Below are positions 810 through 32,186 of a stretch of 64,000 nucleotides of DNA, piece after piece. Under the pieces are notes generated by a model, which was not told the origin of the DNA, searched no databases, and was given only the letters and a program-made list of their open reading frames with translations. This DNA is from a virus, in the IMG/VR virus record IMGVR_UViG_3300024260_000002, positions 1 to 64,000 of that record. The stretch is one strand, 5' to 3'. A program made the translations under genes and the position numbers. The stretch's first letter is position 1. Each line of letters begins with the position of its first letter.

Positions 810-1377
810 ATGGATAATTGATAAAATTGTAGGCGAGTTTGACTATGGTCACAATGTTTGGGTTCAGCATCTTGATGAAGTATTAAGTTGTGGTTCAAAA
901 CCAAAATGTTTACATAGACATGGTCACAGAGGAAAGGTGGTTGCTTATTTAACAGCTGGCGAATTAACAGCTGCTTCAAAAAATATGGTTATTGATTTTA
1001 ATGATATGAAAATTATGACTAAGTTTATAGATGATACATTAGATCATAAATATTTAATTGATATTTCAGATCCTGCTAATTATGATACATTTCATCACTT
1101 TTGGGATCCTGATAATAATAGTTTTAAAGATGATATTCTAGAACTTAAAGAAGAAGGACATTGGATTATAAAAGAAGAATTATATAATAATATGCCTCAA
1201 TCTATGATTGATAAATATAGTTCATATGTTATTTTACCTTTTGTTCCTACATCAGAAAATCTTTCAAAATGGATGTATGATATAATGACTTCTAAAATGG
1301 CTGATACTGGAGTAAAAGTTCATAAAATTGAATGGTATGAAACACCGAAATCTCGAGCAACATTTTACGGTGACTAA
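802..1377 (+). CDS. queD: 6-pyruvoyl-tetrahydropterin synthase / QueD-like enzyme
   Basis: QueD makes 6-carboxy-tetrahydropterin, an early step to preQ0 for queuosine or for 7-deazaguanine DNA modification. Visible features with the ATG at 802 are a zinc-ligand His in YGHNVWVQ (His17), the C-x3-HGH motif CLHRHGH (Cys36, His40, His42), an Asp-His pair in LDHKYLI and a TSEN segment near the end. At 191 residues it is longer than the usual 120-140, with extra sequence after the DHKY motif. The ATG at 802 follows GGAG and is preferred to a TTG at 784. No other preQ0 gene is in the window. Confidence 0.85.
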   Translation: MAKWIIDKIVGEFDYGHNVWVQHLDEVLSCGSKPKCLHRHGHRGKVVAYLTAGELTAASKNMVIDFNDMKIMTKFIDDTLDHKYLIDISDPANYDTFHHFWDPDNNSFKDDILELKEEGHWIIKEELYNNMPQSMIDKYSSYVILPFVPTSENLSKWMYDIMTSKMADTGVKVHKIEWYETPKSRATFYGD

Positions 1378-2603: not shown

Positions 2604-3854
2604 ATGAAAGAATATAAAATAAAAGATATAAAAGATTTAGCTGCTCATTTAAAAACAATGGGCGCTTATGTTCAACAACCTAATCCACAAATTGTTGGTT
2701 TATCTAATACACAAGTAGTAGGTTCACAAGATGCCAAATCTTTATATCCAACGATAATGGTTCTTTTAAATATTGGATATGATACTCTTCGTGGAAGAAT
2801 TTATGATTATGCAATCGTTGGCAAAGTACTTGAAATGTTTGATACTATCTTTGAAATGAGAGGTACATCAGAACAAGATATCATTGAAATTGGACTTAAT
2901 AATTTTAAATCTGCTTTTAGAAATCTTGCTCGTGATTATACAACTCGTGAAAAGCTTAAAAACTCTAAAGCAGAATTCATAGAATTTACAACTGATTTTT
3001 ATGGTGAATGTTTTAGAAAGATAGTTAATTATCAAGGAGCACTTGATGATATTTATACACCAAAAACTGATGAACAATACTATTTATTGAAGAGTGCATT
3101 GTATCCTTTATTAGAAGCGATGACATGGATACATCAAAAAAATAAAGGTTATAGTTCAATTGTAATCGATCATGTATTTTATAATGATGGTTTTAATGAG
3201 AAATATCAAGATAAGAAATTTGTAATCTTTAATGAAATTAATTCATCTAAGACACATGTTAAGATTTTAAATCTTGATCAATTTCATGATCAAATTTCAT
3301 CAAAGTATATTTTAAATCCATATGGCACATATTTTGATAAACATGATAATAATAAATCTTTCGAAGTTGATTTAATTTTGAAAGGTATGTCTGATCGTGG
3401 TTATGTAAAAAATCAGATGCTTATAATTGAAGCGATTGTTGAAAACTGGGGAAAACTTTCTCAAGCTCAACAGATTGCTTTTGTTTTAGATGGTCAACAT
3501 TTAGATCCGACAATAGCAGAACAAGTAGTAGACCTAGTTGGTGATTCAGATCCAGGTACAAAAGCTTGGCAATTGAAAAATCTAAAAGGTATTAAATTTG
3601 ATACTATTGTAACAGAAGAGAAGTTAAATTCTCGATTAGGATTAGCTGCATCGCAGAGAAATTCTAAAAGTAACGGTATTAAGGTAACACTTAACTCCGG
3701 TTATGGTATTTATGGTATGGCTACGTGGAACTATGGTAATAATTTAATTGCCAATAGCATTACATCAGGTGGTAAAATTTATGGAATTAAATTATTCCAG
3801 CAAATTGCATCTAATAAACTTAGAGTTGAAAGAGATAAAATAAAAGGACAGTAA
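2604..3854 (+). CDS. DNA polymerase family B, palm fragment (gp43-like, motifs A and B only)
   Basis: Motif A is DAKSLYPTI at residues 43-51 and motif B is KVTLNSGYG at 360-368, matching the T4 gp43 order. The leading GAYVQQPNPQ also fits the residues that precede motif A in gp43. The 3'-5' exonuclease part (about 400 residues in T4) is absent upstream. Motif C (GDTDS) and the thumb are absent downstream, since the frame stops about 50 residues after motif B. The spacing between A and B is about twice that of T4, with extra sequence right after motif A. The other parts must be encoded elsewhere if the enzyme is active. Confidence 0.85.
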   Translation: MKEYKIKDIKDLAAHLKTMGAYVQQPNPQIVGLSNTQVVGSQDAKSLYPTIMVLLNIGYDTLRGRIYDYAIVGKVLEMFDTIFEMRGTSEQDIIEIGLNNFKSAFRNLARDYTTREKLKNSKAEFIEFTTDFYGECFRKIVNYQGALDDIYTPKTDEQYYLLKSALYPLLEAMTWIHQKNKGYSSIVIDHVFYNDGFNEKYQDKKFVIFNEINSSKTHVKILNLDQFHDQISSKYILNPYGTYFDKHDNNKSFEVDLILKGMSDRGYVKNQMLIIEAIVENWGKLSQAQQIAFVLDGQHLDPTIAEQVVDLVGDSDPGTKAWQLKNLKGIKFDTIVTEEKLNSRLGLAASQRNSKSNGIKVTLNSGYGIYGMATWNYGNNLIANSITSGGKIYGIKLFQQIASNKLRVERDKIKGQ

Positions 3855-4025
3855 ATGTATGATTATGAGTTAGATGAACATATAGAATTAATGATACGTG
3901 ACCAAATCGATAAGACTTGTAAAAATAAGCATAAAATATTAAGTGAAGAATTTATCGCAACGATAATAGATTCACTTAATGAGGCATATAACATTGAAAT
4001 GGAATACTTAATGGACCAACGATAA
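3855..4025 (+). CDS. Small acidic helical protein (56 aa)
   Basis: The ATG immediately follows the polymerase stop codon, and the preceding AAAAGGA lies inside the end of the polymerase gene. The product is acidic and helical (MYDYELDEHIELMIRD at its start). The family was not recognised. Its stop overlaps the next start, as in a translationally coupled chain. Confidence 0.6.
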   Translation: MYDYELDEHIELMIRDQIDKTCKNKHKILSEEFIATIIDSLNEAYNIEMEYLMDQR

Positions 4026-4102
4026 TGTGGTTATGTAGAAAATGTTATACTATGAACTTATCTCAAGCTAAAGAGTGTATTGTTTGTAGAAGAGAGAAGT
4101 AG
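4025..4102 (+). CDS. RanBP2-type zinc-finger microprotein (25 aa)
   Basis: The start overlaps the previous stop (TAATG). The 25 residues contain W-L-C-R-K-C-Y-T-M-N-L-S-Q-A-K-E-C-I-V-C, an exact fit to W-x-C-x2-C-x3-N-x6-C-x2-C, the RanBP2-type zinc-finger pattern. Such fingers bind single-stranded RNA or ubiquitin in eukaryotes. The role here is unknown. The whole protein is just one finger, so it is either an RNA or protein adaptor or a chance fit in a short ORF. The exact spacing argues for a real gene. Confidence 0.6.
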   Translation: MWLCRKCYTMNLSQAKECIVCRREK

Positions 4103-4173
4103 TGGACACTAATTGGGATCTTTTAAAAGAAGATATTGAAAAATATGGAATTAGACATATACATGTTTTAACG

Positions 4174-4192
4174 GAGCCTCCCTTAGAGGCTC
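4174..4192 (+). terminator. GC-rich hairpin
   Basis: GAGCCTC and GAGGCTC pair around CCTTA, followed by ATTCT. It is unusually GC-rich for this genome and marks the end of the polymerase group before the micro-gene cluster. Without a proper T-tract its termination strength is uncertain. Confidence 0.5.
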
Positions 4193-4266
4193 ATTCTAGA
4201 GTGGTGTGAGTGGTGTCAACCCTGACCTGGCAAAAACAATATATTATAAAACACAAAGGAAAGTAA

Positions 4267-4494
4267 ATGAGTAAATTAGAAGAGTATCAAACAAAAAAAG
4301 TAGCACTTGCCTCTGAATTAGAGCAAGTGAATCGAGACTGTATTTTAACAGAGCAATCTGTTAAACAACAAGAAGAGTTATTTATGCAGCAGTTTCAAAC
4401 AACTGATATATCTGAGCTTCAAAAAATTGCGACTCAATATCAAGATGCTATTGTTGCAAAAGAAGCTGAATTAGCTGCGTTAGAACAGGCTTAA
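4267..4494 (+). CDS. Small coiled-coil protein (75 aa)
   Basis: Nearly the whole sequence is predicted helix with heptad spacing and many Glu, Gln and Lys residues, so a coiled coil. No family was recognised. The start follows AAAGGAAAGTAA, a good ribosome binding site. It is the first gene after the hairpin at 4174 and heads the chain of small genes. Confidence 0.65.
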   Translation: MSKLEEYQTKKVALASELEQVNRDCILTEQSVKQQEELFMQQFQTTDISELQKIATQYQDAIVAKEAELAALEQA

Positions 4495-4538
4495 TTATAA
4501 AGTTGGAGATACGAGTACTTCGAGTGTAAAGGATAAAT

Positions 4539-4667
4539 ATGAAATTCAAGATACTAAAACACAAGTTAGATAAGTGGTATATAACACACGAAAAGGAAGT
4601 TATATATGGAATGCTACTAGTTGTAGTTATAGCGGTATGTAGTTTAAACTACATAACTAAAGGATAG
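4539..4667 (+). CDS. Single-span membrane microprotein (42 aa)
   Basis: A basic N-terminus is followed by one hydrophobic helix (GMLLVVVIAVCSLNYI) and the ending TKG. It is probably an inner-membrane peptide. AAAGGAT precedes the ATG by a normal distance. The last codons ACT-AAA-GGA-TAG themselves form the ribosome binding site of the following gene. Confidence 0.6.
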   Translation: MKFKILKHKLDKWYITHEKEVIYGMLLVVVIAVCSLNYITKG

Positions 4668-4670
4668 GTG

Positions 4671-4799
4671 ATGACTAATCTTATAGCTGATGGGTTCATA
4701 GATAGTCTTAGAACTAAGTGTCTAGTAGAATCAGTATCTAACATTGATATTATTGAATTAGATTCACTAGCTATAGAAATTATTAGTGGAGATATGTAA
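4671..4799 (+). CDS. Hypothetical small protein (42 aa)
   Basis: The ATG follows AAAGGATAGGTG, and the TAA overlaps the next ATG. The short acidic product is not recognised. The support is the ribosome binding site and the tight fit between neighbours. Confidence 0.5.
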   Translation: MTNLIADGFIDSLRTKCLVESVSNIDIIELDSLAIEIISGDM

Positions 4800-5023
4800 T
4801 GAGCAAGAGAAATGATGAAGAAATGGCTGAGTTTAGACAGGAAATGTTAGGTGATGCTAGAGCTGATGAATTGCATGAGATTAAACTACATGGTGATTAT
4901 GACTATGCTTTAGAGCAACATGAAGATGATATACAAGATGCTATAGATATACTTCATATGGTAACAGTAAAGCTTGCATCATATGGTTGGGAAGTAACGA
5001 TTAAAGACCTTGTAGATGTCTAA
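4799..5023 (+). CDS. Hypothetical acidic protein (74 aa)
   Basis: An acidic helical protein rich in Asp, Glu and His (for example YALEQHEDDIQDAIDIL). The family was not recognised. Its start overlaps the preceding stop and its last codons overlap the next start, so it is part of the coupled chain. Confidence 0.6.
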   Translation: MSKRNDEEMAEFRQEMLGDARADELHEIKLHGDYDYALEQHEDDIQDAIDILHMVTVKLASYGWEVTIKDLVDV

Positions 5024-5105
5024 ACAAGATATGCTTACTTATATAGCATGGGTAGTAGTTTTAGCTGTAATAGCTATTGGAGCATTGATAATAACGAAAG
5101 GGTAG
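5016..5105 (+). CDS. Single-span membrane microprotein (29 aa)
   Basis: The ATG lies inside the end of the previous gene. The product has one hydrophobic helix (YIAWVVVLAVIAIGALII) and ends TKG, like the 42-aa membrane peptide at 4539. The two may be relatives or simply similar in design. It is an inner-membrane peptide of unknown role. Confidence 0.55.
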   Translation: MSKQDMLTYIAWVVVLAVIAIGALIITKG

Positions 5106-5152
5106 AGATACCTAGTGTAAGAGTAAGAACTTGTGTCATAAAGGAGATATAT

Positions 5153-5389
5153 ATGAAACTAGAATTAGATGAGATACAGTTTATGAAGATTGCTATAAAT
5201 AATTCAGACCCGTTCTGTTCAGTAAAAGAAGCTAAGTCCAGAGTATATAGAACATCACAAAGTATAGCTGACTTAGGAAAACAGCTAGTTTTAGATAAGA
5301 AGCACTTAGCACAACTAGAAGCTAGGGACAATATGGTCGAGAAGCTTAAAGACAAGCTGTCAGTAGAGTTAGAAAAAAATGAAACATGA
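5153..5389 (+). CDS. Small coiled-coil protein (78 aa)
   Basis: The longer frame from 5048 overlaps the membrane peptide and lacks a ribosome binding site. The ATG at 5153 follows AAAGGAG and is preferred. The product is helical with a charged C-terminal coiled coil. No family was recognised. Confidence 0.65.
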   Translation: MKLELDEIQFMKIAINNSDPFCSVKEAKSRVYRTSQSIADLGKQLVLDKKHLAQLEARDNMVEKLKDKLSVELEKNET

Positions 5390-5417
5390 TATAGCAATAT
5401 GTGTAACTAAAGGATAA

Positions 5418-5615
5418 ATGATGAATAAGAATAAAATAATTAATGAGTTAGAAGCTAAACTAAACATAGCAAACAACACTGTACATAGACAAATGAACCA
5501 TATTGAGATGTTAAATAAGCAACTAGACCAGCAAGACAAAGCTATAGAACGAAAAGATAGACAGTTCTTGGGTCTTAGGTGTGCATACCAAGATGAGATA
5601 ATAAACAAAGGATAA
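5418..5615 (+). CDS. Small coiled-coil protein (65 aa)
   Basis: The sequence is mostly a heptad-type helix (IINELEAKLNIANNTV, then MLNKQLDQQDKAIE). The start follows ACTAAAGGATAA. The C-terminus reads NKG-stop, whose DNA AAAGGATAA serves as the next gene's ribosome binding site. The function is unknown. Confidence 0.6.
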   Translation: MMNKNKIINELEAKLNIANNTVHRQMNHIEMLNKQLDQQDKAIERKDRQFLGLRCAYQDEIINKG

Positions 5616-5618
5616 GTA

Positions 5619-5942
5619 ATGTATGACCATAGTAAATATATATTAGATAACATAAAAGTAGATGAATCAAAGCTTAAAGTGGGTGATTGGGTAAGAGATA
5701 ACAAGAATAAATCCTGTCATATCTTTTGTATGGATGAACTATCTATTAATCATAAAGTAGATGACTTTGACACTAGGTTTAAACTATGGAAACCAACAGA
5801 AGGTGAGATGGTTTTCTATGAGATAAGTGAAACAGAGTTTACACTATTAGTATATACACCAGATGAGTGGCTGCAAGAGTTTGTATCTAAGACTAAGTTC
5901 TACCCGCTAGAATTTGCTATGACATTAAAGGATAAACAATGA
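5619..5942 (+). CDS. Hypothetical protein (107 aa)
   Basis: Not recognised. It is a mixed alpha/beta cytoplasmic protein with a KVGDWVRD segment that resembles small barrel domains in other phage proteins. Its ribosome binding site is the AAAGGATAA at the end of the previous gene. It overlaps the next gene by 4 bases, so both are probably made from one transcript. Confidence 0.65.
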   Translation: MYDHSKYILDNIKVDESKLKVGDWVRDNKNKSCHIFCMDELSINHKVDDFDTRFKLWKPTEGEMVFYEISETEFTLLVYTPDEWLQEFVSKTKFYPLEFAMTLKDKQ

Positions 5943-6298
5943 ATGAAATAACAATAGATGGAATAACATACGATATGGTAAAGAGAGATAGGCACCCTTG
6001 GCGAATGCCAAACATAAAAGAGCTACTAAGTGCAGTAGACTATGAGAAATGTGACCCTGCTACAAGTATGGAAGGATTTACTTCTAGGTTTTATTGGTCT
6101 TCTTCATCAAATGTTTCGGATTATAAGTATGCTTGGGGTGTAAACTTTAAGTATGGCTATTCCAGCTACTACCATAAGGCAAATGAGAATTATGTCTGGT
6201 GTGTTAGAACAGATGAAAATGGTACTCTTGTTTGGGGTAAATCAAGTGATTACCTAATGACTTGGGAAGATGCTCAAGAATGGTGTAAAAAACAATAA
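5939..6298 (+). CDS. DUF1566 / Lcl C-terminal-like domain protein (119 aa)
   Basis: The order WRMPNIKELLSAVDY, then RFYWSSSS, YAWGVNF and YVWCVRT is the DUF1566 pattern, a C-type-lectin-like fold. There is no signal peptide, so it is cytoplasmic or a virion part. The final segment MTWEDAQEWCKKQ normally stands before the WR-P-I-EL motif in this family, so the domain looks cut at an unusual point or is the remnant of a second repeat. Binding of a surface ligand or sugar is possible, but nothing here proves it. Confidence 0.7.
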   Translation: MNEITIDGITYDMVKRDRHPWRMPNIKELLSAVDYEKCDPATSMEGFTSRFYWSSSSNVSDYKYAWGVNFKYGYSSYYHKANENYVWCVRTDENGTLVWGKSSDYLMTWEDAQEWCKKQ

Positions 6299-6389
6299 AC
6301 AAAAGGTAAGTAATGCATAAACAAGATTTCTGGAAGATTATAAGATGAGTCATGGTCATTGTATCATGAGCAAATACTAAGGAGCAGAA

Positions 6390-7655
6390 ATGAAAAAGAT
6401 GCTAATCTTTGTCGATGCAAAAGGCAATAAAAATAAGTTCTATCAATTAGAAATGATTGGTGATACTGTTGAAGTTGAATATGGCCGAGTTGGTAGTAAT
6501 CCACAAAAACGATCATATTCTGGTGGTGAACGTACATTCAATAAAAAAATGAATGAGAAACTTAAAAAGGGTTATACCGAAAGTAAAGTTAACTTAGAAG
6601 TTATTGAAGAGATTACTGGAAGTAAAGGAAATATGTTAGATATTGCTATGGAGCAAATAACAACAGATGATATTTCTAAATTACTTATAGCTGAATTAGT
6701 AAAACAAAATATTCACAATATTACAAGTAATACAAAAATTAAATATGATATTGATACTGGTTATTTTAAAACAGCTCTTGGAATCATTACCCAAGAAGGT
6801 GTTGAAGAGGCGATTGAATTATTAACCGAAATTGAAACTTTTCAAGACAAAATGGGTAAACATTCAGATGCTGAGTACGATAAGTTTGTAAAACTTAATG
6901 AAAAGTATTTCAGTATAATTCCAACAAAAATTCAAAATCTTAGAGATTATAAAAACTTACTTATTACAAATGAGAAAGTGGAATCTCAGATGGATATTTG
7001 TACCGCTCTTTTAAATTCTTTGGATATTATTGAAGATGAGAAAGCTAAGATTAAAGCTAAAGATTCAGGAGAAACCATTATTTATGAGAAAGTATTTGAA
7101 GCAAGTGTTTTACATTTAACAGATAAAGTTGAATATAAAAGATTAGAAGATTATTTTCATGATTCTAAAAATAGAAGACATGGACATGGATCTTATAAGA
7201 TTAGTAATATTTTTAGAATAAGTCTTGGAGAAGAAGAAAAAAATTATAGAAATGATCTTGATAATCAAGAAGAACTTTTTCATGGTACGAAGGTTTCTAA
7301 TCTTTTAAGTATTCTTAAAAGTGGTTTACTGATGCCTAAATATTCCCCTGGTCAATCAACAGGTTATATGTTTGGTCAAGGTTTATACTTTGCTAGTCAA
7401 AGTACCAAAAGCTTAAATTATTGTGATGGTATGTATTGGAATAATTCTAAATCACAAGATAAGATTTATATGTTTGTTGCTGATATTGCAATGGGTAATT
7501 ATCAAGTACCAAGTTCAAGTCGAAGTAGAAAACCTGATGCAGGTTATGATTCATATTGGGCAAAACCTGGTAAATCCGGTATATCAAACGATGAAATGAT
7601 TATTTTTGAAAACAATCAAATTAAATTAAAGTATATTTTAGAGATTACAAAATGA
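6390..7655 (+). CDS. Poly(ADP-ribose) polymerase-like protein with WGR domain
   Basis: The first 75 residues form a WGR domain (motif YGRVG at 31-35, Tyr in place of Trp). A helical PARP regulatory domain and the ADP-ribosyltransferase domain follow. The catalytic triad is visible: His298 in LFHGT, Tyr333 in GLYFA and Glu402 in SNDEMIIF, the last matching the polymer-forming Glu of PARP1. It should transfer ADP-ribose from NAD+ to a protein or nucleic acid, and the WGR domain suggests activation by DNA ends. It has its own start after AAGGAG and stands before a gp47-like nuclease and recombination genes. Targets could be host or phage factors. Confidence 0.9.
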   Translation: MKKMLIFVDAKGNKNKFYQLEMIGDTVEVEYGRVGSNPQKRSYSGGERTFNKKMNEKLKKGYTESKVNLEVIEEITGSKGNMLDIAMEQITTDDISKLLIAELVKQNIHNITSNTKIKYDIDTGYFKTALGIITQEGVEEAIELLTEIETFQDKMGKHSDAEYDKFVKLNEKYFSIIPTKIQNLRDYKNLLITNEKVESQMDICTALLNSLDIIEDEKAKIKAKDSGETIIYEKVFEASVLHLTDKVEYKRLEDYFHDSKNRRHGHGSYKISNIFRISLGEEEKNYRNDLDNQEELFHGTKVSNLLSILKSGLLMPKYSPGQSTGYMFGQGLYFASQSTKSLNYCDGMYWNNSKSQDKIYMFVADIAMGNYQVPSSSRSRKPDAGYDSYWAKPGKSGISNDEMIIFENNQIKLKYILEITK

Positions 7656-7729
7656 TAAGTAAAATAGTATTTATTATACTTATTATAATCGGTTATTTAA
7701 ATTATGAAACGGGTTATTATGGGTTTTAG
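7652..7729 (+). CDS. Membrane microprotein (25 aa)
   Basis: An ATGA overlap joins it to the PARP gene. Most of its residues form one hydrophobic helix (KIVFIILIIIGYL). The overlap and composition support a real gene, but 25 residues is too short to be sure. Confidence 0.4.
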   Translation: MISKIVFIILIIIGYLNYETGYYGF

Positions 7730-7805
7730 AAACAATGCGCAATTTAGAAAAAGAAACAAAGTTGATTCAACAGAATCTACTCAAACACAAAATAAAGGAA
7801 ATATA

Positions 7806-9023
7806 ATGAATAAAGAAATCACAGGAATTGATGCTAACTTACCAGATGGTGTAGTAAAAGAATTATACAAAAGAATTGACAAGTATATTGAATATTTACC
7901 AGAAGATGAAAGATATTTTGCTAAGCAATTAATTATTTGGATTAGTGGTGATAACAGTGGAACAAGTTCTGTTAATACTGCAATCATTGAAAAGAGAAGT
8001 ATGTTTATGATCTTTATGGCAATTGGTAAAAGAAAACAATTTAATGTTGATAGTGATCCAAAATACATTATGTTATATAAAAAATATCAAACACATATGG
8101 AAGTAAAATATAGTTTACAGATTCCTTCTTGGCAAGAATTATCAGACTTTTATTCATATCCTGCAATGACTGCTGATATTTTTAAGGTTGAGATTAAAAA
8201 ACATGATGATGATATTCAAAGATTTGTGAAAGCAAGTCAGGTGGAAAAAGAGATTAATGATGTTCCTGACGCAGTATCTTTTATTCCAACACAAACAGAT
8301 GTTGATCGTCTTGGTAAAGTAAAGGACCGTGTAGTGAAAAATATTAGTGAAAATTATGAAAAATGTATAGAAGCAGCTGTTGATTTAGATATGGATACTT
8401 TTGGTTTTATGAAACCTGTTATTGAAGAATTTAAAGGTGATAAAGGCACCATGAATACTTTTCTAAAAGCATTAGATAATAAGAATCCTTTAAAGCTTTT
8501 CGAAGCGGCTACAAAACGTAAACCAAAAAGTGAAAAACTTAAAACTATTTTAGAGCAATATGTAGAATTTATTGATGATATGAAAAAAACTGATGAGGCG
8601 GCTGCACATACAGCTACTGATGAAGTTGCTGTTGATGTGTTTAAGGTGTTTAATGACGCTTCAAAATCACAATGTCATACTACACCTGATGTAGGTGCAA
8701 CTCGTGGAGATACTCAAAAAGTTCCTTTCGTTGCAAAAGAACTATTAATGTTAAATAAAGTAGAAATTGTTCAACATATTGATCAGATGATGTTAAAAAT
8801 TATAAATGATACTGTTTCAACATTTGGTGTTGAATTTGAGAGTTTCAATGATTATGAAAATGAAATTTTTAATGAAGCAATTGTTTCGTTGAAAAAACGT
8901 CACCAATTTGAAATATATGGTAGATGTCAATCTCTTCGTGAGATGATTGCACTATTAGATATTTATGTTAATAGACGCGGACATAATATGTTATCACATG
9001 TTATTGAAACTTACGAAGCTTAA
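7806..9023 (+). CDS. Hypothetical protein (405 aa)
   Basis: The family was not recognised. The frame is open from 7704, but the ATG at 7806 follows AAAGGA at good distance and avoids overlapping the membrane peptide. The protein is hydrophilic and helical, with no signal or membrane segment. It lies directly before the gp47-like nuclease gene, so a role in DNA replication or recombination is an inference from position only. Confidence 0.65.
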   Translation: MNKEITGIDANLPDGVVKELYKRIDKYIEYLPEDERYFAKQLIIWISGDNSGTSSVNTAIIEKRSMFMIFMAIGKRKQFNVDSDPKYIMLYKKYQTHMEVKYSLQIPSWQELSDFYSYPAMTADIFKVEIKKHDDDIQRFVKASQVEKEINDVPDAVSFIPTQTDVDRLGKVKDRVVKNISENYEKCIEAAVDLDMDTFGFMKPVIEEFKGDKGTMNTFLKALDNKNPLKLFEAATKRKPKSEKLKTILEQYVEFIDDMKKTDEAAAHTATDEVAVDVFKVFNDASKSQCHTTPDVGATRGDTQKVPFVAKELLMLNKVEIVQHIDQMMLKIINDTVSTFGVEFESFNDYENEIFNEAIVSLKKRHQFEIYGRCQSLREMIALLDIYVNRRGHNMLSHVIETYEA

Positions 9024-9032
9024 AGGGTAAAA

Positions 9033-10067
9033 ATGTTATTAGAATTCGTCACAATGAAAGATCCACATCTTTCATTTGGTTTTCAAAATAGAATTCGAAA
9101 GAACTATGAGAAACATATTAGTCAAAAGTTAGAGTTTGTTAGAGGTTATGCTTTATCAAATAATATAGATACTGTTGTTTTTACAGGTGATGTTTTTGAT
9201 TCTAGTACAGAAGATAAATGGTCATTTAAAAAATACAGAAAGAATAAAAGAGCACTTGAAGAATTTAAAGGTTCAGAATTAAAGCTTTATTCAAATGTTG
9301 GTAACCATGATATGTTTCATGGTTATGAAGAATCTGAAGATACTATCTTCGGTGAAATGGTTCATGATAATATTTTAATAAACTTAACTAAAAATCCTTT
9401 AGTTCATATGGAAAATACATCTGTTATAAAAGTTCAAGGTGTTGATTATTCAAATGAAAATAATATTGTTCTTGAGAACATTAGAGTTTTTGATGAAGAA
9501 GCATATCCTGGATATGATGTATTTAAAGTTTGTGTGTTACATTCTAATGTAACACCGAATGAAGTAAAAAGAGTTACAGACTTTACTTATAAATCATTAG
9601 CTGAAAAATTTCCAGATATTGATGTTTTTATATTAGGTCATTACCATGTTGGTTATGATACTACTACTATGAAACGAGAAGGTGGTAAAGATATAACTTT
9701 TATAAACAATTGGAACTTTACTCGTGTAGTAAGAGATTATGAAGTTGAATTAGATGAACATTCTCCTGAGTTTGAACATGTATCAATTCAATTTGATAAT
9801 ATTACTAAACAGTTTAATTTGGAAACTAAAACTATTAAGGTACCATTCGTTACTTACAATGAAGCTTTTTCTGCAAAAGATATTGATATATTAAAGAAGA
9901 GTAAAAAAGAAATTTTTAACTTTTTTGAAGATATAAATTTTGAAGATATAAAAGTAGATAGTAAAAAAGATGATGATACTTTAATTACAAAAATAGTTGA
10001 AGAAAATGAATATACTGAGGGTGCTATGAATTGCGCCCTCGAGTATTTAAATAATGCACAAGGATAA
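9033..10067 (+). CDS. Recombination nuclease subunit, SbcD/Mre11 family (gp47-like)
   Basis: The metallophosphoesterase motifs occur in order: D-x-H in KDPHLS near residue 10, GDVFD near 53, GNHD near 90, LHS near 170 and GHYH near 205. The length (344 aa) matches T4 gp47 (339). With its Rad50-like partner it resects DNA ends for recombination-dependent replication. The partner is the SMC-like gene at 14478, separated by the two rII-like genes; in T4 genes 46 and 47 are close together. Confidence 0.9.
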   Translation: MLLEFVTMKDPHLSFGFQNRIRKNYEKHISQKLEFVRGYALSNNIDTVVFTGDVFDSSTEDKWSFKKYRKNKRALEEFKGSELKLYSNVGNHDMFHGYEESEDTIFGEMVHDNILINLTKNPLVHMENTSVIKVQGVDYSNENNIVLENIRVFDEEAYPGYDVFKVCVLHSNVTPNEVKRVTDFTYKSLAEKFPDIDVFILGHYHVGYDTTTMKREGGKDITFINNWNFTRVVRDYEVELDEHSPEFEHVSIQFDNITKQFNLETKTIKVPFVTYNEAFSAKDIDILKKSKKEIFNFFEDINFEDIKVDSKKDDDTLITKIVEENEYTEGAMNCALEYLNNAQG

Positions 10068-10069
10068 AC

Positions 10070-11713
10070 ATGCAAGGTACAAATAGACCCTCAATATTAC
10101 AATTAAGCATAATGAAAATATTTGCAACAGATACAAAAACATCAAAATATTTAGAAAAACGTTTTGAGTTAGATGATGAAGCATTTATTGATGCTGCTAA
10201 AAAGCAACGTCCGAAAAATAGAAAGTTGATTGATTTTTTAGATGAACGTAGAGTTCATTTAGAAAATACAGTTCCACCTGAAGTCGAAGAAGAAGTTGCT
10301 GAGACTGAACCTGAGACTGAACCTGAGACTGAACCTGAGATTAGTAAAGATGATCAAATTCTTTTACAACTAAGAGAAATCTTTGCAAAAGATTCTGGTA
10401 CACTAAAAAGAATTAATCGTAATTATGTGCAAGGTGTCGTCGGTGAAGCATTAGTTGTTATTGCTTTAAAGGCTAGACCTAAAAATGCTAAAACTTTAGC
10501 AATATTACATGAGATCAGATTTGGTCCTAAACGTGTTGTAGAAGAAGAAGATGTTGTAGATGATACATGGTCTAAAGAAGTTGCTGATAAAGTGTCTAAA
10601 GAAGATGATGAAGTAAAAGTTACAACAGCTGCTGGTAAATATGATAATGTTGTAGTAGGCAAAATAAAAGGTAAAGTTGAAAAAATTGGTAAAGTTTCAC
10701 ATGTAGCTGAAGGTTTTGATGTTCGTGCTAAACTATTAGTTGCATTCTCAACAGATACTGGCACTTTAAAAGCAATCAATAAAAAGATTGGTAAGAATAT
10801 TGGTGATGATGATTTAATTGAAATGTGTTTAAGTCGTCGTCCTAAGAATGCAAAACTTAAAGCAATAATGAAAGACTTATCAGATTTTAGAGAATCAGAA
10901 GATGATGTTCGAGAATTTGAAGGTGATGACTCAATCGTAGGTGATTACGAAATTAAAGCACAGATGAAAGTTGATAATATTCCATATGTTCAAAATGATG
11001 ATAAAAATTTAACTATGTTTATTAATGGTGAGATGGAAGTAATTAATAATGAACATCCAAATTTTAAAAAGATAGTAAAATGTCTTGAAGAAGAAAAATG
11101 GAATGATATTATACCAATGCTTGATATTCGTTGTAGTGTTGCAAATTTAGTTTATAAGCAATTGGAGTTTAAAAATGATACTCTTTATCATGAAGGTAAA
11201 GAATTAGATGGAGCACTTATTGATTTCATTTTAGCAATGGTGGAATCAGGTGAAAATGATATTCAACCATTTATGAGATTCTTACATAAGTTATTAAAGA
11301 ATCCAAGTAAACGAGCACAAAAAGAACTTTATAGTTTTCTAGCATCAGGTAAGATTCCAATTAATGAGAGAGGCAATATTCTAACTTATAAACGTATTAA
11401 TGAAAACTGGACTGATTGTCATTCTGGTAGTATTAGTAATAAAGTTGGTGAAACTGTTTCAATGGAAAGAGGTAAAGTTGATGATAGAAGTACTGTAACT
11501 TGTTCTCAAGGTTTACATGTTTGTTCATATAGTTATCTTTCATCATTCGGTGGAGGTAGAACAGTTATATGTGAAGTTAATCCTTTAGATGTTGTTTCAA
11601 TTCCTTCAGATTATCGGAATGCGAAAATGAGATGTTGTAAATATACAATTCTTAAAGAAATTAAGAATAACGAAGCAGATGTACTTTCAGAAAGTCCTAT
11701 CTACTTTAAATAA
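10070..11713 (+). CDS. rIIB-like protein with three N-terminal RPKN repeats
   Basis: The C-terminal half (about residues 310-547) resembles T4 rIIB, with LTYKRINENWTDCHSG, then TCSQGLHVCSYSYL, GGGRTVICEVNP and SDYRNAKMRCCKY. The N-terminal half is unlike T4: three modules of about 45 residues each end in a P-K-N core (QRPKNRKL, ARPKNAKT, RRPKNAKL), joined by acidic linkers including EPETEPETEPE. The modules may bind DNA. It is followed by the rIIA-like gene, the reverse-order pair of T4. rII proteins affect membrane and exclusion phenotypes, but their biochemical role is unsettled. Confidence 0.8.
   Translation: MQGTNRPSILQLSIMKIFATDTKTSKYLEKRFELDDEAFIDAAKKQRPKNRKLIDFLDERRVHLENTVPPEVEEEVAETEPETEPETEPEISKDDQILLQLREIFAKDSGTLKRINRNYVQGVVGEALVVIALKARPKNAKTLAILHEIRFGPKRVVEEEDVVDDTWSKEVADKVSKEDDEVKVTTAAGKYDNVVVGKIKGKVEKIGKVSHVAEGFDVRAKLLVAFSTDTGTLKAINKKIGKNIGDDDLIEMCLSRRPKNAKLKAIMKDLSDFRESEDDVREFEGDDSIVGDYEIKAQMKVDNIPYVQNDDKNLTMFINGEMEVINNEHPNFKKIVKCLEEEKWNDIIPMLDIRCSVANLVYKQLEFKNDTLYHEGKELDGALIDFILAMVESGENDIQPFMRFLHKLLKNPSKRAQKELYSFLASGKIPINERGNILTYKRINENWTDCHSGSISNKVGETVSMERGKVDDRSTVTCSQGLHVCSYSYLSSFGGGRTVICEVNPLDVVSIPSDYRNAKMRCCKYTILKEIKNNEADVLSESPIYFK
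10304..10339 (+). repeat. 12-bp tandem coding repeat (GAGACTGAACCT x3)
   Basis: Three exact copies of GAGACTGAACCT encode the acidic ETEP linker of the rIIB-like protein. It is a probable slippage site. Confidence 0.75.
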
Positions 11714-11719
11714 AAAACG

Positions 11720-11747
11720 ATCTTTAAAGATTTCGATCTTTAAAGAT
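11720..11747 (+). repeat. Two copies of palindrome ATCTTTAAAGAT
   Basis: Copies at 11720-11731 and 11736-11747 lie in the gap between the rIIB-like and rIIA-like genes. The same 12-bp palindrome forms the arrays at 19489-19631 and 49600-49791. It may be an operator, an RNA hairpin or part of a replication or partition site. Confidence 0.75.
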
Positions 11748-11802
11748 CATAATGTCATGTGATATAACCACAAATAAAAATAAAATTATATAAGGAAAAA
11801 AA

Positions 11803-14466
11803 ATGATAATTCAAGATGAAAAATCAATAGTAAAAATGAACGGAGCACTTGAAACTGCTGACTTTGAAATTAAAACAGATGATGGAAAAATGTTTCACAT
11901 TCTTTCAAATCTTTATTCTAATCCATTAGGCGCAGTAGTAAGAGAATTAAGTACAAACTGTGGAGATGGTCATAAAATTGCAGGAAGTGAAGAATTACCT
12001 TTTGATATTATTCTACCTGGTAGAATGGATAGCGGTAACTTTATTACTTTTCGTGATTATGGTCCTGGTATGCCACATGATGTGGTTATGAGTATTTTTA
12101 CTACATTTGGTCAAAGTACTAAATCTGGTTCAAATACAGAAACTGGTTGTTTAGGTTTAGGGAGTAAATCTCCTTTAGCTATTACTGATTCATTTACGGT
12201 TACAAGTGTTAATGATGGTTTTAAAACAACATATTCCGTATCAAAAGATGCTCAAAGAAAACCAGTACTTGCTAAATTTGGAAGTATTGAAACAGAAGAA
12301 GAAAATGGTTTAAGTGTAACTGTTCCTTTATCAAGTACACATCAAAATAATGTTATGAATGAAATTATTTCACAACTAGAATTCTTTAAAGTTAAACCAA
12401 ATGTTTATAATGGTGATAAAGAAATTAATATGAATTGGAATGATAATTCAAGATTCTTTTCTTTAACTGATGAGATATTTATTAAAGAAAAAAGATATGA
12501 TAAGGATTCTAGAATCATTCAAGGTGAGATTGGTTATTCATTTAACAGTTCAACTTTAATTAATACGTTTGTTATTGATGATAAAGATCAACATAAATTA
12601 GAATTTTTGGAAGTTAAAGATCAACATATTTCTAGAGAAACTTTTGAGATATTAAATAAATTTTTTAATAGACATGAGTTGCAGATTTATATGCCAATGG
12701 GTACTGTAACATTTGCTCCTTCGCGTGAAGAGCTAATTTATGATATATTAACTTGTCATAATATTATGGAACAACTATTAAAAAGTATTCAACTTATTGG
12801 TCATAAATATAAAGATATTTATGACCTTGTTGAAAACACTTATCAGTATAGACAAATCAGACAAGGTTATTCTAGTTCAAGTGAATATATTGCTGGTCTA
12901 GATGATAAAATGAAACGATTTATGTCTATTATTGGATGGGGTTTTGAAAATTCATTTCGTACTAAATGGAAATTATTAGATGGTACAGACGCTAATATAA
13001 ACATAGGTCCAATTAAAAGTTTTCCTAAGTTTAATCAATTTATTGAGCTTCGTCATATGACATATAATCCTTGGTCTTTCCAGATTCAAACGAAAAATAT
13101 GATTACAAAAAAGAAAGACCGTTGGTCAAGTCCAGATGAAGTTACAATCTCATCCGGTCCAATTTATGATTTCGTTGATAAAGTGAATTATAAAAATATC
13201 AAGTTTGTTCTTGTAGCTAAAGATGAAAAGTTTCATAAGAAGCACATCAATAATTATTTAACTTCTGTTAATACAGGTAAAAATGGTTTAGGTGATACAA
13301 TAGATGTTGTTATGATTAAGACTTTAGATATACATGCAACAGATGAGATGCAAAAAGAGTTTATAAAGTATTGTGGATTATCTCCTGAAAATGCTTTACA
13401 TTATGAGAAAGTTCTTGAAATTTCTCAAGAGTTAATTGATTCAGGTAAGGCACCTGTTAAAGCATATGAAAGCAAACCTAAAACTTTACGATACGCTTAC
13501 TTAAAAAACGTTTCTAGAGATAATAGAAATTGGAGTACTGCGGAAGTAACATCAAAAACAATTAAAGAAGATTTGATTGGTTTATATATCCCAACTTTCA
13601 ATAATAAGATTATTTTTAAAAATTCAACAAAAGAGTTGTATCCTGAGTTATGGAGCATAGTTGAAAGACCAAGAACAAAAGAAGATGGTTTAAGTTATCT
13701 TTTAAAATTTTTAAACACTTTTGGTCATAAGATTAATTTTGATATTAAGCTTTATAGTGGTCATGAAAATAATTTTAAAACTACCCAACTAGTTCACCTT
13801 GAAGATTTTATAAATGCTGTTGTTGCTAAATCTAGATATCAAAATGCTTGGCATGCTTTAAATCGTACACAAAAAACATTCAATGGTAATATTACACAAG
13901 TGGATTCTGTTTCTACTTTTGTAAATAATATTGATTTTTATAGTGGAATATATGATGGTAAAATATCTGATAGACATAAAACTTTATTAGCTAAAATACA
14001 AAAAGAAATGAAACCATTAAAGGATTGGTTTTTTAAAGATGAACATCCAATTATAGCATTATATGAAAAGTGTAAAAAGTATAATGTTCGAAATGATTAT
14101 ATGGGTATACTTCAAAATACAAATCTAATTAATTATCCGGAAGAATTAAAAATTATAGGCGGTTATTTAGATGTTAAATTTGATTTTGTTAACTTAGATG
14201 TTGATTTTGTTAAGGTTGATGATATGTATAACTTAGGTGAATTTAGAAGTTCAAATAATTTTAAATATGGTTACAATCAGGTTTCTGATATGTTTACACG
14301 ATTAGAAAATACATTATATTCAATCAATAAGCAAGACTTTATGGAAGAATTTGCACCAGGCTTAAATACATTTGGAAGAATTCCAGTAGTTATTGATGAC
14401 GAAGAAGAACAAGATAGTGCTATTAATAAGCATGATTCTACCGAGGTAGAATTGGTAGCTGAATAA
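11803..14466 (+). CDS. rIIA-like GHKL ATPase-domain protein
   Basis: The N-terminal 200 residues form a GHKL ATP-binding fold: the N-box VVRELSTNCGDGH, the G1 box FRDYGPGMP and the G2 loop GCLGLGSKSPLA. This is the arrangement of T4 rIIA. The length is 887 residues against 725 in T4, the extra sequence being in the poorly conserved middle and end. It follows the rIIB-like gene and starts after AAGGAAA behind the palindrome pair at 11720. Like rIIA it is expected to work with the rIIB-like protein at the membrane. ATP binding is inferred from the motifs. Confidence 0.85.
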   Translation: MIIQDEKSIVKMNGALETADFEIKTDDGKMFHILSNLYSNPLGAVVRELSTNCGDGHKIAGSEELPFDIILPGRMDSGNFITFRDYGPGMPHDVVMSIFTTFGQSTKSGSNTETGCLGLGSKSPLAITDSFTVTSVNDGFKTTYSVSKDAQRKPVLAKFGSIETEEENGLSVTVPLSSTHQNNVMNEIISQLEFFKVKPNVYNGDKEINMNWNDNSRFFSLTDEIFIKEKRYDKDSRIIQGEIGYSFNSSTLINTFVIDDKDQHKLEFLEVKDQHISRETFEILNKFFNRHELQIYMPMGTVTFAPSREELIYDILTCHNIMEQLLKSIQLIGHKYKDIYDLVENTYQYRQIRQGYSSSSEYIAGLDDKMKRFMSIIGWGFENSFRTKWKLLDGTDANINIGPIKSFPKFNQFIELRHMTYNPWSFQIQTKNMITKKKDRWSSPDEVTISSGPIYDFVDKVNYKNIKFVLVAKDEKFHKKHINNYLTSVNTGKNGLGDTIDVVMIKTLDIHATDEMQKEFIKYCGLSPENALHYEKVLEISQELIDSGKAPVKAYESKPKTLRYAYLKNVSRDNRNWSTAEVTSKTIKEDLIGLYIPTFNNKIIFKNSTKELYPELWSIVERPRTKEDGLSYLLKFLNTFGHKINFDIKLYSGHENNFKTTQLVHLEDFINAVVAKSRYQNAWHALNRTQKTFNGNITQVDSVSTFVNNIDFYSGIYDGKISDRHKTLLAKIQKEMKPLKDWFFKDEHPIIALYEKCKKYNVRNDYMGILQNTNLINYPEELKIIGGYLDVKFDFVNLDVDFVKVDDMYNLGEFRSSNNFKYGYNQVSDMFTRLENTLYSINKQDFMEEFAPGLNTFGRIPVVIDDEEEQDSAINKHDSTEVELVAE

Positions 14467-14477
14467 AAGGAGATACG

Positions 14478-16466
14478 TTGGAAGAAACATTTGATGTTGT
14501 AAAATTCAAAATGAATAGTCATAAACAGAACATCGATACATTATCGCAAAAGATAACACAAGATGAAGCTGAGTTATTAACTGTTCAACAAAAGATGAAA
14601 GATTTAGGTGATGCAAAAAGTATCTTAACAATTCTAAAAAATTATAAGATGGAATCTAAAAAAGATTTCATTCTTAAAACAATTAACACCGCACTCGAAG
14701 ATGTATTTGATCAAAACCTTAGAGTAGATATTGAAGCAATGTCTGCAACAAGTACTGGTAAAATTAACATGAAGTATGATATTGTTCTTTATCAGAATGA
14801 TATTGAAATGGCTCGTAATGAAAAACTTTTAGGTAATAATGGTGGTGGGGTATTAAGTTTTATTAGTATTCTATTTAAAGTTCTTGTTGGTTATATTTAC
14901 TCTGATAATAAATTCTTTTTATTTGATGAAAGTATAGCTCAAGTTAGTCCTTTGTATCGTCCTAGGTTAGCACAATTCTTAAGAAAGTTTTGTGAAGAAT
15001 ATAAATTTACTTTAGTTCTTATTAGTCAGACAGATGATATAGATGAATATGCCCATGTTGGTTATTATCTTGATGGAGAATTTGATGAAAATAATGTTCC
15101 TCTTTTAAAGATTGATCATGTCATGGGTGAATATCCTACTGATAAATATGTCTACACTAAGATTGAAAATTTTCAAAGTATAGTTAAACTTGAATTTCGG
15201 TATAAAGGTTTTACTGTTATTCGTGGAAATAATAATATTGGTAAGAGTGCATCTTTTAGAGCTGTTAATGCAATTCTATTTAATACATTTGATGTAAAAG
15301 ATCATCCTAGAAAACTTAGACCTCGTGGTGCAGAATCTAAAATCTTATTTGGTTTCTATGATTCCGAAGCAGAAGAAGATAATAGAAGTATTAGTTTAAA
15401 ATACAAATCAAATAAAGTTGTATATGAATTTGATGGTAATACATTCTCTGGTAAAAGTTTAGCTTTTGATAAAGTTAAAGAGAAGGTTGAAAGTATTGGA
15501 TTTAAATATGTTGACTTAAAAGAAACATATAAGAATTTTAAAGGTAATTTAAAAGATCAAACTGAAAGATTAGCAATGACTTCTCAGCATGATGGTTTTT
15601 ATCTTGTTGGCAATAAAGCTTCTGAAACAGAAAAGGTTTTTAACTTTCTATTTGATAGCACTGAAGTAGCTAATGCTATATCATCTGTTACTATTGATAT
15701 AAATATTAATCATAATATATTTAATGCTCTAAATGATGCTGTTGTTTTAAATAAAGGTAATCTAGAGAAAGAAAAAATTAATTATGATATATATGTTTAT
15801 AAATATTATGTTAGTATGATTACAACGCATATAACTAACGCATACGCCCTAGAACATAAGGCTCATATCAAAGTAACTGTTGAGGATTTAATTGCAAATA
15901 TCGATACTTATATGATGATTACACTAGGTATTGATAGTTTAGTAGAGAATAGAAATATTCTAATACAATTACAAAATACTAATGTAAAAAATAGAGAAAC
16001 TATAGTAGATGAATTAATTGAATATAGTACTTATTTAGATAAGCTTTATACGTATTTTAATGATCATGAAAAGCATAAGATTGCAAATGATAAAATGCTA
16101 GTTGTTGAAGCTGGTATTTTAAAGTACTCGAAGTTGGAAGTTATTGCAAATGATATATACAGTCTCGAATACTATATAAATTCAATTAGTAAATATAATG
16201 ATGATTTGGTAAGATTAGATTCTTTAAAACATAATAATGCTAGTTTACGATTTAGTGTTTTAAATGAATTGATTGATAGTGAACCACATTACCAATCATT
16301 AACTAATGCTATAACTCAGTATCAAAGAAATCTAGATAAAGTAGAAACATTAAAAGATAAAGATTATAGTATCTTAAATTCTATGTCTAATCTAGATAAA
16401 GAATTTGGTATAGCGATTTGTGGTACGTGTGGAGGTTCCGGTCATATATTCGGAGAAGGACATTAA
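14478..16466 (+). CDS. Circularly permuted SMC/Rad50-like ATPase (gp46/SbcC-type)
   Basis: The two halves of an SMC/Rad50 ATPase occur in reversed order. First come a coiled coil (residues 10-45) and the C-terminal lobe: signature LGNNGGGVLS (118-127), Walker B KFFLFDES (145-152) and a switch LISQTDD (181-187, Gln instead of His). Then comes the N-terminal lobe with ENFQSI and Walker A GNNNIGKSA (250-258), another coiled coil, and a CGTCGG hook-like motif at the very end (Cys648, Cys651). In ordinary Rad50/SbcC/gp46 proteins Walker A is at the N-terminus and Walker B at the C-terminus. The TTG start is chosen because AAGGAG stands five bases before it. It is the likely partner of the gp47-like nuclease. 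Confidence 0.85.
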   Translation: MEETFDVVKFKMNSHKQNIDTLSQKITQDEAELLTVQQKMKDLGDAKSILTILKNYKMESKKDFILKTINTALEDVFDQNLRVDIEAMSATSTGKINMKYDIVLYQNDIEMARNEKLLGNNGGGVLSFISILFKVLVGYIYSDNKFFLFDESIAQVSPLYRPRLAQFLRKFCEEYKFTLVLISQTDDIDEYAHVGYYLDGEFDENNVPLLKIDHVMGEYPTDKYVYTKIENFQSIVKLEFRYKGFTVIRGNNNIGKSASFRAVNAILFNTFDVKDHPRKLRPRGAESKILFGFYDSEAEEDNRSISLKYKSNKVVYEFDGNTFSGKSLAFDKVKEKVESIGFKYVDLKETYKNFKGNLKDQTERLAMTSQHDGFYLVGNKASETEKVFNFLFDSTEVANAISSVTIDININHNIFNALNDAVVLNKGNLEKEKINYDIYVYKYYVSMITTHITNAYALEHKAHIKVTVEDLIANIDTYMMITLGIDSLVENRNILIQLQNTNVKNRETIVDELIEYSTYLDKLYTYFNDHEKHKIANDKMLVVEAGILKYSKLEVIANDIYSLEYYINSISKYNDDLVRLDSLKHNNASLRFSVLNELIDSEPHYQSLTNAITQYQRNLDKVETLKDKDYSILNSMSNLDKEFGIAICGTCGGSGHIFGEGH

Positions 16467-29903: not shown

Positions 29904-32150
29904 ATGAGTAATGAATTAGAAAGAGAATTTACTTACCCAGGAAAAGAACTTAAAGAGATTGAGAAAACAGAAGAGCTTACTCGATTAGAGAAGTTCTTAT
30001 ATGATTCAAATGCAAGTTCTCTTTATATGGATGATGTTATTGATTTTAAACATGAACCAATGTTCCTCGGAACAGGTAAAAATACTCAAAGATTTGATGA
30101 TCCCAAATATGCATTTTTTGATAAATCAAATGATAAACAACAAGGTAATGATTGGAAACATAATGAAGTACCACTTGTTCAAGATCAAGCAGATTTTAAA
30201 ACATCATTAACTGATGCACAAAGATTTATAACTAGAGTTGATCATCAAAAATTAATATTTTTAGATTCAATTCAAGGTCGTGGACCATTATTAATTTTTG
30301 GACAAATCACAACTTTGCCTGAACTTGAAAATGTTATTCTTACATGGGAATATTTTGAAGGTGCAAAACATTCAAGAACTTACACGGAACATCTTAGAGC
30401 ATTCTATGATAAACCAGATGAGGTATTTGATGAAGCATTTCAACTTCCAGAGTTAAAAAAACTAGCTAAGAAGATTGGTGTAGTTTATGACATTGCTTAT
30501 TATAATGTAATTAATTATGTTTATAAAGATCAACGTGGTTTAGAATACACTCAACAAGAATACAAAGACTTAAAAGAAAGTATTGTTATGTTATGGGTTG
30601 AGATTAATATACTTGAAGGTATAAGATTTTATCCTGGTTTTGCTAGTATTTGGGGAATGACTGAATCAAAAAATATTTTTAGAGGTGTTTCTGAAAATTT
30701 ACAATTTATTTGTATGCATCCAGAAACTGACATATTGACAGATAAAGGTTGGAAAAAAGTAGAATTTTTATCATTAGATGATAATATTGCACAACAAGAT
30801 TTAGATACAGGTTTAGTGTCATTTGCTAAACCAACTAGAAAGATATGGAGAGAATATAAAGGAAAGATGCATAAAATCATAGATGCAACTGGAAAAACTA
30901 TTCAACATTTAACAGAAGATCATGAAATAGTTGTTAGTAGAAGAAATTCAAAAACAAAAGAATTAACAACAAAAAAAGTTAAAGTTCAAGATACAAAATT
31001 TAATAATTCAACATATTACCCACAAGGTGGAAAATTAGAAATCTCAAATGATGAATTTGCATTAAATACTTTAGAACAATTTAGAATCATGACAGCGGCT
31101 GATGGATATATTAATCCTCGCAGTAATGGTAAACAAACAGGATTTCAAGCAGTTAATTTTTCATTAAAAAAAGAACGAAAAATAGAATTATTCTTTCAAT
31201 ATTGTAATGAATTAGATTATAAAATAGTTGAAACAAAATCAATTAATGATGTTAGAATGTTTATAGTAAGTGTTCCTGTTGAAATTAATATATCTAAATC
31301 TTTAAATTGGATATGTTTAAATTCAAGCACTGATTATATAGATAGTATTTTAATGGAGTTAATTAAATGGGATGGTTCAGATAAAACAGAAGCTTCAAAT
31401 AATAAATATGCTTTTTTTACAAGCGATAAAGAAGTTGCTGATCAGGTAATTGCGTTAATTACTTTAAGTTCATATAAATCATTTAATTACAAACAAGTTA
31501 ATAAATCACAAGGACATTATAAAGATTCGTATAAAATATATTTTAGAGATGATGAAAAAATTATAAATACTCAAAAATATATTGATGATGTATATGATTA
31601 TGATGGAATGATTGGATGTGTGACTATGCCAAAAGGTACTATTATAACTAAATCGGTTGATAATAAGGTAACTACAACTGGAAACTGTCGCGATGAAAAT
31701 GAACATTTAGCATTAACTCAATTTATGTTAAAACTTCTAAAAAAAGAAAAAGAAGAAGGTTTTGTTGAAGTTTATAAAGAACTTGAACCTCGTATTGAAG
31801 CGAGATTTTATGAAGCTTATCATGAAGAATGTGATTGGATAGATTTTAAATTTAGTAAAGGTTCATACACTGGTATGAATGCTGCTATCCAAAAAATGTA
31901 TTTAAATTATATTACTATTCGTAGAATGCGTGCTGTTGGTTTAAATCCAACAAAAGAACGTCTTGGTGATATGTATATTATAAAGAATCCAATTCCATGG
32001 GTTGATAAATTTATCAACATGGACAAAAATGAAAAACTTCCACAGGAAGAAAAAGTTCTAAATTATATAACAGGTGCTGTTGAACAAGATGTTGCAAAAC
32101 ATAGCGAACTTGCTTGTGTTAAACGACTACTAAAACAATTTATAAAATAA
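29904..32150 (+). CDS. nrdB: Ribonucleotide reductase beta subunit NrdB with intein
   Basis: The extein parts make about 423 residues of a class I small subunit. Metal ligands are visible in LTWEYFEGAKHS (E and H), WVEINILEGIRFYPGF and RDENEHLAL (E and H). It houses the metal cofactor that oxidises NrdA for deoxynucleotide synthesis. An intein of 325 residues (270-594) interrupts it between QFI and CRDENEH, in the iron-ligand helix. Splicing is needed for activity. The nrdB gene precedes nrdA, the reverse of many operons. Confidence 0.9.
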   Translation: MSNELEREFTYPGKELKEIEKTEELTRLEKFLYDSNASSLYMDDVIDFKHEPMFLGTGKNTQRFDDPKYAFFDKSNDKQQGNDWKHNEVPLVQDQADFKTSLTDAQRFITRVDHQKLIFLDSIQGRGPLLIFGQITTLPELENVILTWEYFEGAKHSRTYTEHLRAFYDKPDEVFDEAFQLPELKKLAKKIGVVYDIAYYNVINYVYKDQRGLEYTQQEYKDLKESIVMLWVEINILEGIRFYPGFASIWGMTESKNIFRGVSENLQFICMHPETDILTDKGWKKVEFLSLDDNIAQQDLDTGLVSFAKPTRKIWREYKGKMHKIIDATGKTIQHLTEDHEIVVSRRNSKTKELTTKKVKVQDTKFNNSTYYPQGGKLEISNDEFALNTLEQFRIMTAADGYINPRSNGKQTGFQAVNFSLKKERKIELFFQYCNELDYKIVETKSINDVRMFIVSVPVEINISKSLNWICLNSSTDYIDSILMELIKWDGSDKTEASNNKYAFFTSDKEVADQVIALITLSSYKSFNYKQVNKSQGHYKDSYKIYFRDDEKIINTQKYIDDVYDYDGMIGCVTMPKGTIITKSVDNKVTTTGNCRDENEHLALTQFMLKLLKKEKEEGFVEVYKELEPRIEARFYEAYHEECDWIDFKFSKGSYTGMNAAIQKMYLNYITIRRMRAVGLNPTKERLGDMYIIKNPIPWVDKFINMDKNEKLPQEEKVLNYITGAVEQDVAKHSELACVKRLLKQFIK
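30711..31685 (+). mobile_element. Intein in NrdB
   Basis: The intein begins with Cys270 (block A CMHPETDILTDKGWKKV), has a block B-like HLTEDHEIVVS, and ends VTTTGN before extein Cys595. These are the required splice residues: Cys1, terminal Asn and Cys+1. The middle has MTAADGYIN and LIKWDGSD, weak LAGLIDADG-like motifs, so the homing nuclease may be degenerate while splicing is kept. The insertion lies within the metal-ligand segment, a conserved site typical for inteins. Confidence 0.9.
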
Positions 32151-32152
32151 TA

Positions 32153-32172: not shown

Positions 32173-32186
32173 CTAAAAGGAAATTA

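Follow-up and report, generated by a model that had tools for sequence, protein, structure and literature searches.

In the usual teaching, a Rad50 or SMC protein is a single chain running out to a hook or hinge and then back. In the SMC superfamily, the Walker A half of this chain comes first and the Walker B half last (PMC9389158). The initial annotation of the window, a 64,000-nt stretch lying in a virus record of 181,622 bases, had taken the gene at 14478-16466 to encode an SMC/Rad50-type ATPase of circularly permuted order, each motif set occurring once, in the sequence signature, Walker B, Walker A, and CGTC. We asked whether this order is real, what kind of protein it specifies, and how it came about.

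The motif order was confirmed in one open reading frame (ORF), and the core motifs are conserved in a 50-row alignment of relatives. The 662-aa product runs from a short coil through the signature, Walker B, and Walker A to a long arm and a terminal CGTC half-hook, each motif (signature, Walker B, Walker A, and terminal CxxC) being present once. The gene and its parts are as follows.

14478-16466, + strand: permuted Rad50-type ATPase, 662 aa (C-lobe, N-lobe, arm, half-hook); uninterrupted ORF, AlphaFold2 model, homologues of the same order
14467-14472, + strand: ribosome-binding site AAGGAG ahead of the TTG start, read directly from the sequence
14490-14705, + strand: N-terminal coiled-coil helix of the C-lobe, residues 5-76 (DSSP on the AlphaFold2 model)
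14829-14858, + strand: ABC signature LGNNGGGVLS, residues 118-127; G122 invariant in the 15 rows holding a C-lobe
14910-14933, + strand: Walker B KFFLFDES, residues 145-152; D150 and E151 invariant
15084-15146, + strand: C-lobe/N-lobe junction, residues 203-223, the join point relative to the two-gene split relatives (alignments and model)
15225-15248, + strand: Walker A GNNNIGKS, residues 250-257; GK[ST] invariant, PF13476 match
15585-15587, + strand: Q-loop glutamine Q370, kept in all rows holding an N-lobe except one
15660-16403, + strand: long helical arm, residues 395-642 (DSSP; low confidence past about residue 460)
16419-16430, + strand: C-terminal half zinc hook CGTC, residues 648-651; both cysteines invariant, C-terminal profile of the family matches Rad50 hook structures

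Both coil segments claimed earlier are present, but they are unequal in length, with about 72 residues on the C-lobe helix versus about 250 on the N-lobe arm. Repeat units suspected by eye in the arm found no support in a self-comparison. The signature is degenerate (GGG, not SGG), and in the 50-row alignment the H-loop histidine is replaced by glutamine in the three fused phage proteins only, one split relative having glycine there. Because of these two changes, ATP hydrolysis by the phage permuted proteins may be altered.

We then searched the 181,622-base record for a separate conventional gp46. The PF13476 model of the SMC-type N-lobe and the C-lobe family PHROG 15167 each matched a single ORF in the record, that at 14478-16466, and the same PF13476 search detected T4 gp46 at 4e-15 as a positive control. 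A six-frame pattern scan of the 181.6-kb record revealed no other SMC-type ATPase ORF. No conventional gp46/Rad50 was thus found in this possibly incomplete record, and a second, conventional gp46 was rejected, since only one SMC-type gene is there.

Neither scans with single proteins nor a scan with the rIIA neighbor gave close relatives. The same order was found in two jumbo-phage contigs, L047 (272.6 kb; permuted protein of 651 aa) and L123 (281.5 kb; 604 aa), whose proteins run from C-lobe to N-lobe and are 43 to 49% identical in the heads to that at 14478-16466. The divergence among the three phage copies was coding-like, being lowest at codon position 2, higher at position 1, and highest at position 3. 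A plasmid search with the L123 protein, followed by a search with the Vibrio protein, reached homologues on megaplasmids. In a protein of Vibrio plasmids of about 0.9 Mb, annotated as an "AAA family ATPase," the C-lobe spans residues 5-190 and the N-lobe residues 244-386, with CPLC as the terminal motif; by tblastn this protein matched 25 plasmid records, 21 of which had the permuted order through both lobes. Seven permuted megaplasmid proteins were read and verified (two from Vibrio, and those of Pseudomonas FeN3W, pMPPla107, Alteromonas, Bosea, and Rhizobium). The search for homologues with Walker B ahead of Walker A, suggested in the initial annotation, was therefore successful both in phages and in megaplasmids.

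About 52 other phages (counted as distinct split systems in the tree, with Tunturi_5 and Magritte included) carry the Rad50 lobes as separate genes. In nearly all complete cases the N-half ends just past a CPxC-like hook, and the C-half is short. The collected loci covered 10-kb flanks; 41 of them had the N-half only and 6 the C-half only, while in all 60 loci with both halves the N-half lay upstream of the C-half on the same strand, 2.6 to 6.7 kb apart. Tunturiibacter phage Tunturi_5 has gp14 as its C-half and gp181 as its N-half; the latter, with an SbcD nearby, terminates in CGKCG. The C-half and N-half of Microbacterium phage Magritte are gp2 and gp155, respectively. In LR745208 (485 kb) SbcD, a PD-(D/E)XK nuclease, and further genes lie between the two halves.

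L017 (LR745208.1), 3391-13890: recombination/replication cassette of RecA, thymidylate synthase, Rad50 N-half, SbcD, PD-(D/E)XK nuclease, possible sliding clamp, and Rad50 C-half

The protein preceding the C-half in this cassette may be a sliding clamp. No further Rad50 was detected by PF13476 in the isolates Tunturi_5 and Magritte or in LR745208. A 489-aa C-half in L028, considered as another fusion, was rejected, as it looks like an ORF over-extended upstream.

The profile of the C-half family matched the C-lobe of Pyrococcus Rad50 (3qkr_B, 1ii8_B) over nearly its whole length, and that of the N-half family matched the N-lobe of Thermotoga Rad50 (3qf7, 3tho), with its last ca. 60 positions matching the Rad50 zinc-hook structures 6zff and 1l8d. 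The CxxC is conserved and sits at the chain end, and the C-terminal family profile matched Rad50 hooks. PHROG 15167, a C-half family, matched the C-lobe of the 14478-16466 protein at 3.9e-11. The 50-row alignment comprised the three fused proteins, 12 C-halves, and 35 N-halves; with too many C-halves MAFFT placed the half-genes on each other, and the row set was chosen by motif register. The signature glycine, the DE of Walker B, the GK[ST] of Walker A, and both hook cysteines were invariant in the rows covering them. The independent matches of the two half profiles to Rad50 lobes, together with these conserved core motifs, exclude a chance arrangement of motifs.

AlphaFold2 run on the 50 rows gave a model (ma8ea4a2a01f7) with a mean pLDDT of 80.4, which superseded a poor one built from 23 rows (pLDDT of 63). 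It predicts a single-chain head with both lobes mostly at a pLDDT of 80 to 97, a 72-residue N-terminal helix (residues 5-76), and an extended arm helix beginning at residue 395; the arm and hook are of low confidence, falling beyond about residue 460. The best solved matches in Foldseek were Rad50 structures, with 5dac at the top, and the best predicted viral structures were the separate C-half and N-half of one phage, Siphoviridae ctYh54 (219 and 359 aa; BFVD). A sequential structure alignment covered only one lobe of a conventional head at a time, as expected because the chain is permuted. The non-SMC fold that the initial annotation had named as grounds for refutation was not seen, the prediction being that of a Rad50 head. 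The protein thus has an N-lobe with Walker A and Q-loop and a C-lobe with signature (in its GGG form) and Walker B, both homologous to those of Rad50, and the two are predicted by AlphaFold2 to form one ABC head. The order of Walker A half, coil, and Walker B half is reversed. Because this SMC-defining chain order was tested and does not hold here, we name the protein a permuted Rad50-type ATPase and not a conventional member of the family. On the evidence of motifs, lobe homology, and fold prediction, the earlier reading was borne out.

A gp47-like protein had also been noted in the window, and its identity as SbcD/Mre11 was supported by two family models and by intact motifs.

9033-10067, + strand: SbcD/Mre11 (gp47-like) nuclease, likely partner (PF00149 at 6.5e-8; TIGR00619 sbcd at 8.4e-6; alignment)

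Its motifs DPH, GDVFD, GNHD, and GHYH are intact, so that at the gene level a likely Mre11/SbcD partner with active-site motifs is present. The gene lies in the same gene block as the permuted Rad50, from which rIIB-like and rIIA-like genes at 10070-14466 (+) separate it. Also near it, at 6390-7655 (+), is a phage poly(ADP-ribose) polymerase gene with WGR, regulatory, and catalytic domains; a similar gene stands at 7882-9135 in the related contig L003, likewise shortly before its SbcD. In the L123 contig, an SbcD with intact motifs is directly upstream of the permuted gene, and on the Bosea megaplasmid one is directly downstream. The neighbor of the permuted gene on the megaplasmids of Vibrio, Pseudomonas, and Alteromonas encodes an SbcD relative whose metal-binding motifs are lost. 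The SbcD relatives without the usual metal-binding motifs that adjoin a megaplasmid permuted Rad50 are these.

L144, 7629-8501
L148, 4820-5728
L147, 4769-5665
L149, 4710-5486

Since the usual metal-binding motifs are missing, these sequences suggest that the Mre11 relatives in question are nuclease-dead.

Several other genes were observed in the window. At 784-1377 (+) is a QueD-like 6-pyruvoyl-tetrahydropterin synthase gene, which suggests deazaguanine modification of phage DNA or tRNA. The large subunit of ribonucleotide reductase at 29904-35930 (+) is split by an intein with a LAGLIDADG domain, and the small-subunit ORF of this region is apparently interrupted too. On the opposite strand, an outer-membrane-like protein with a DUF3373 match (57625-58791, -) resembles by eye Campylobacterota proteins, which hints at the host, and a histidine-kinase-like gene (59058-61069, -) adjoins a response-regulator-like one.

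How does the protein compare with known systems? Engineered single-chain heads keep the N-C order, with the lobes joined via a shortened coil. The likeness to them drawn in the initial annotation is therefore inverted: in the 14478-16466 protein the join links the native C- and N-termini, leaving the coil open. The protein shares with T4 gp46/gp47 and E. coli SbcC/SbcD (Rad50/Mre11) both ABC lobes, a coiled coil, a CxxC hook motif, and, as partner, a nuclease of the calcineurin type. T4 gp46 and SbcC, however, run N-lobe, coil, hook, coil, C-lobe, whereas the 14478-16466 protein runs C-lobe, N-lobe, arm, hook, and its signature and H-loop have diverged from theirs. T4 gp46 was weakly matched by the N-lobe profile of the permuted/split family (E of 0.003). 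Among NCBIfam models, the N-half scored best with NF045487 (5e-9 for L041 and 3e-7 for L123), a point of likeness to the archaea-specific SMC-related proteins. The same two domains are held as separate genes by PHROG 15167 (C-lobe only, "ATPase") and PHROG 16465/4747/1499 (N-lobe side), to which type the split members Tunturi_5 gp14/gp181, Magritte gp2/gp155, LR745208, and the two BFVD proteins of Siphoviridae ctYh54 belong; the PHROGs annotate these halves only as "ATPase" and "exonuclease," with no pairing assigned. The megaplasmid proteins WP_085762326.1 (Vibrio vulnificus), WP_162305755.1 (pMPPla107), and WP_173049974.1 (Bosea) share the permuted order, a C-terminal CxxC, and an adjoining SbcD-like gene, but identity is about 21%, the partner motifs are often lost, and the annotation is silent on permutation.

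Among published relatives, the archaea-specific SMC-related proteins (ASRP: ClsN/Sph) are also zinc-hook SMC relatives, but their order is conventional, with the hook mid-chain (PMC9389158). Mimivirus R555 and other fusions within the same complex join Mre11 to Rad50, without reported reordering of the Rad50 lobes; only such fusions are described there, and "circularly permuted" refers to the T4 genome (PMC3175470). In giant phages, the SbcC and SbcD genes lie apart from each other, with SbcC internally conventional (PMC5105663). SbcC/SbcD is described as nearly universal in jumbo phages, and the relevant passages of that source do not mention splitting (PMC7824862). The open-access papers searched contained no natural permuted or split Rad50/SbcC. 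The earlier statement that no natural case is described stands to this extent, but the same order does occur in nature, in sister phages and megaplasmids.

We have high confidence in the joint reading of the protein as a permuted Rad50/SbcC-type ATPase with one head and an SbcD partner, acting in DNA-end processing and derived by C-N fusion. According to the model, the C-lobe and N-lobe of one chain would fold into a single head. Two such heads would dimerize on ATP, each presenting its signature to the partner's Walker A. SbcD would bind at the base of the coil, and the CxxC at the chain end would pair via Zn2+ with another arm. By analogy with T4 gp46/gp47, the complex would act on DNA ends in the service of recombination and replication; its possible roles include end resection, replication that depends on recombination, or breakdown of host DNA. 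Because the coil is asymmetric, this protein must either do without whatever the Rad50 return strand provides or obtain it in another way.

The permuted form most likely arose by C-N fusion of separate N-half and C-half genes, the state seen in the majority of related phages. The simplest path would be a break of a conventional gene at the hook, relocation, and C-to-N fusion, because a broken conventional gene leaves N before C, as in every split locus. That a conventional gp46 was instead permuted directly, by tandem duplication and truncation, and that the split genes stem from a later break in a gene of permuted or conventional order, is in our judgment unlikely: the N-before-C arrangement at 60 of 60 split loci fits a conventional gene broken at the hook, and N-halves nearly always stop just past the CPxC. 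The tree leaves this route some room. The three phage permuted proteins form one clade (SH-aLRT of 100) and the megaplasmid ones a separate clade (support of 100), so the permuted order is seen in two clades far apart; their shared origin has a support of 36, with long branches that may attract. The root is uncertain as well, so the fused form could be older, and the tree does not prove a split-then-fuse history.

In a virus contig from a metagenome, such as this record, chimeric assembly or a local rearrangement might have joined two genes. We regard this as exceedingly improbable: two independent phage contigs share the order at the head identity given above, and since the megaplasmids bearing it are complete isolate replicons, metagenome mis-assembly is ruled out as the source of the architecture. 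A nuclease-independent SMC-like machine, e.g., for genome partition or tethering rather than DNA-end processing, would suit the adjacent Vibrio, Pseudomonas, and Alteromonas genes lacking Mre11 metal-binding motifs, but the intact SbcD motifs in the phage studied here, L123, and Bosea make it distinctly improbable. More tentatively, recurrent splitting at the hook and C-to-N rejoining might have produced permuted Rad50 machines with asymmetric arms, an unrecognized class carried by jumbo phages and megaplasmids, of which some would have a nuclease-inactive Mre11 partner and act in tethering or partition; we put this forward as a possibility that we somewhat doubt.

For the family as a whole, the natural permuted and split forms indicate that continuity of the out-and-back path of the Rad50/SMC chain is not required, and they place the break of the chain at the hook. 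They also supply compact constructs, made by nature, with which the function of the coil's return strand can be probed. On well-known megaplasmids such as pMPPla107 these proteins are labeled "AAA family ATPase," and a widespread complex for repair or maintenance thus seems to have escaped notice.
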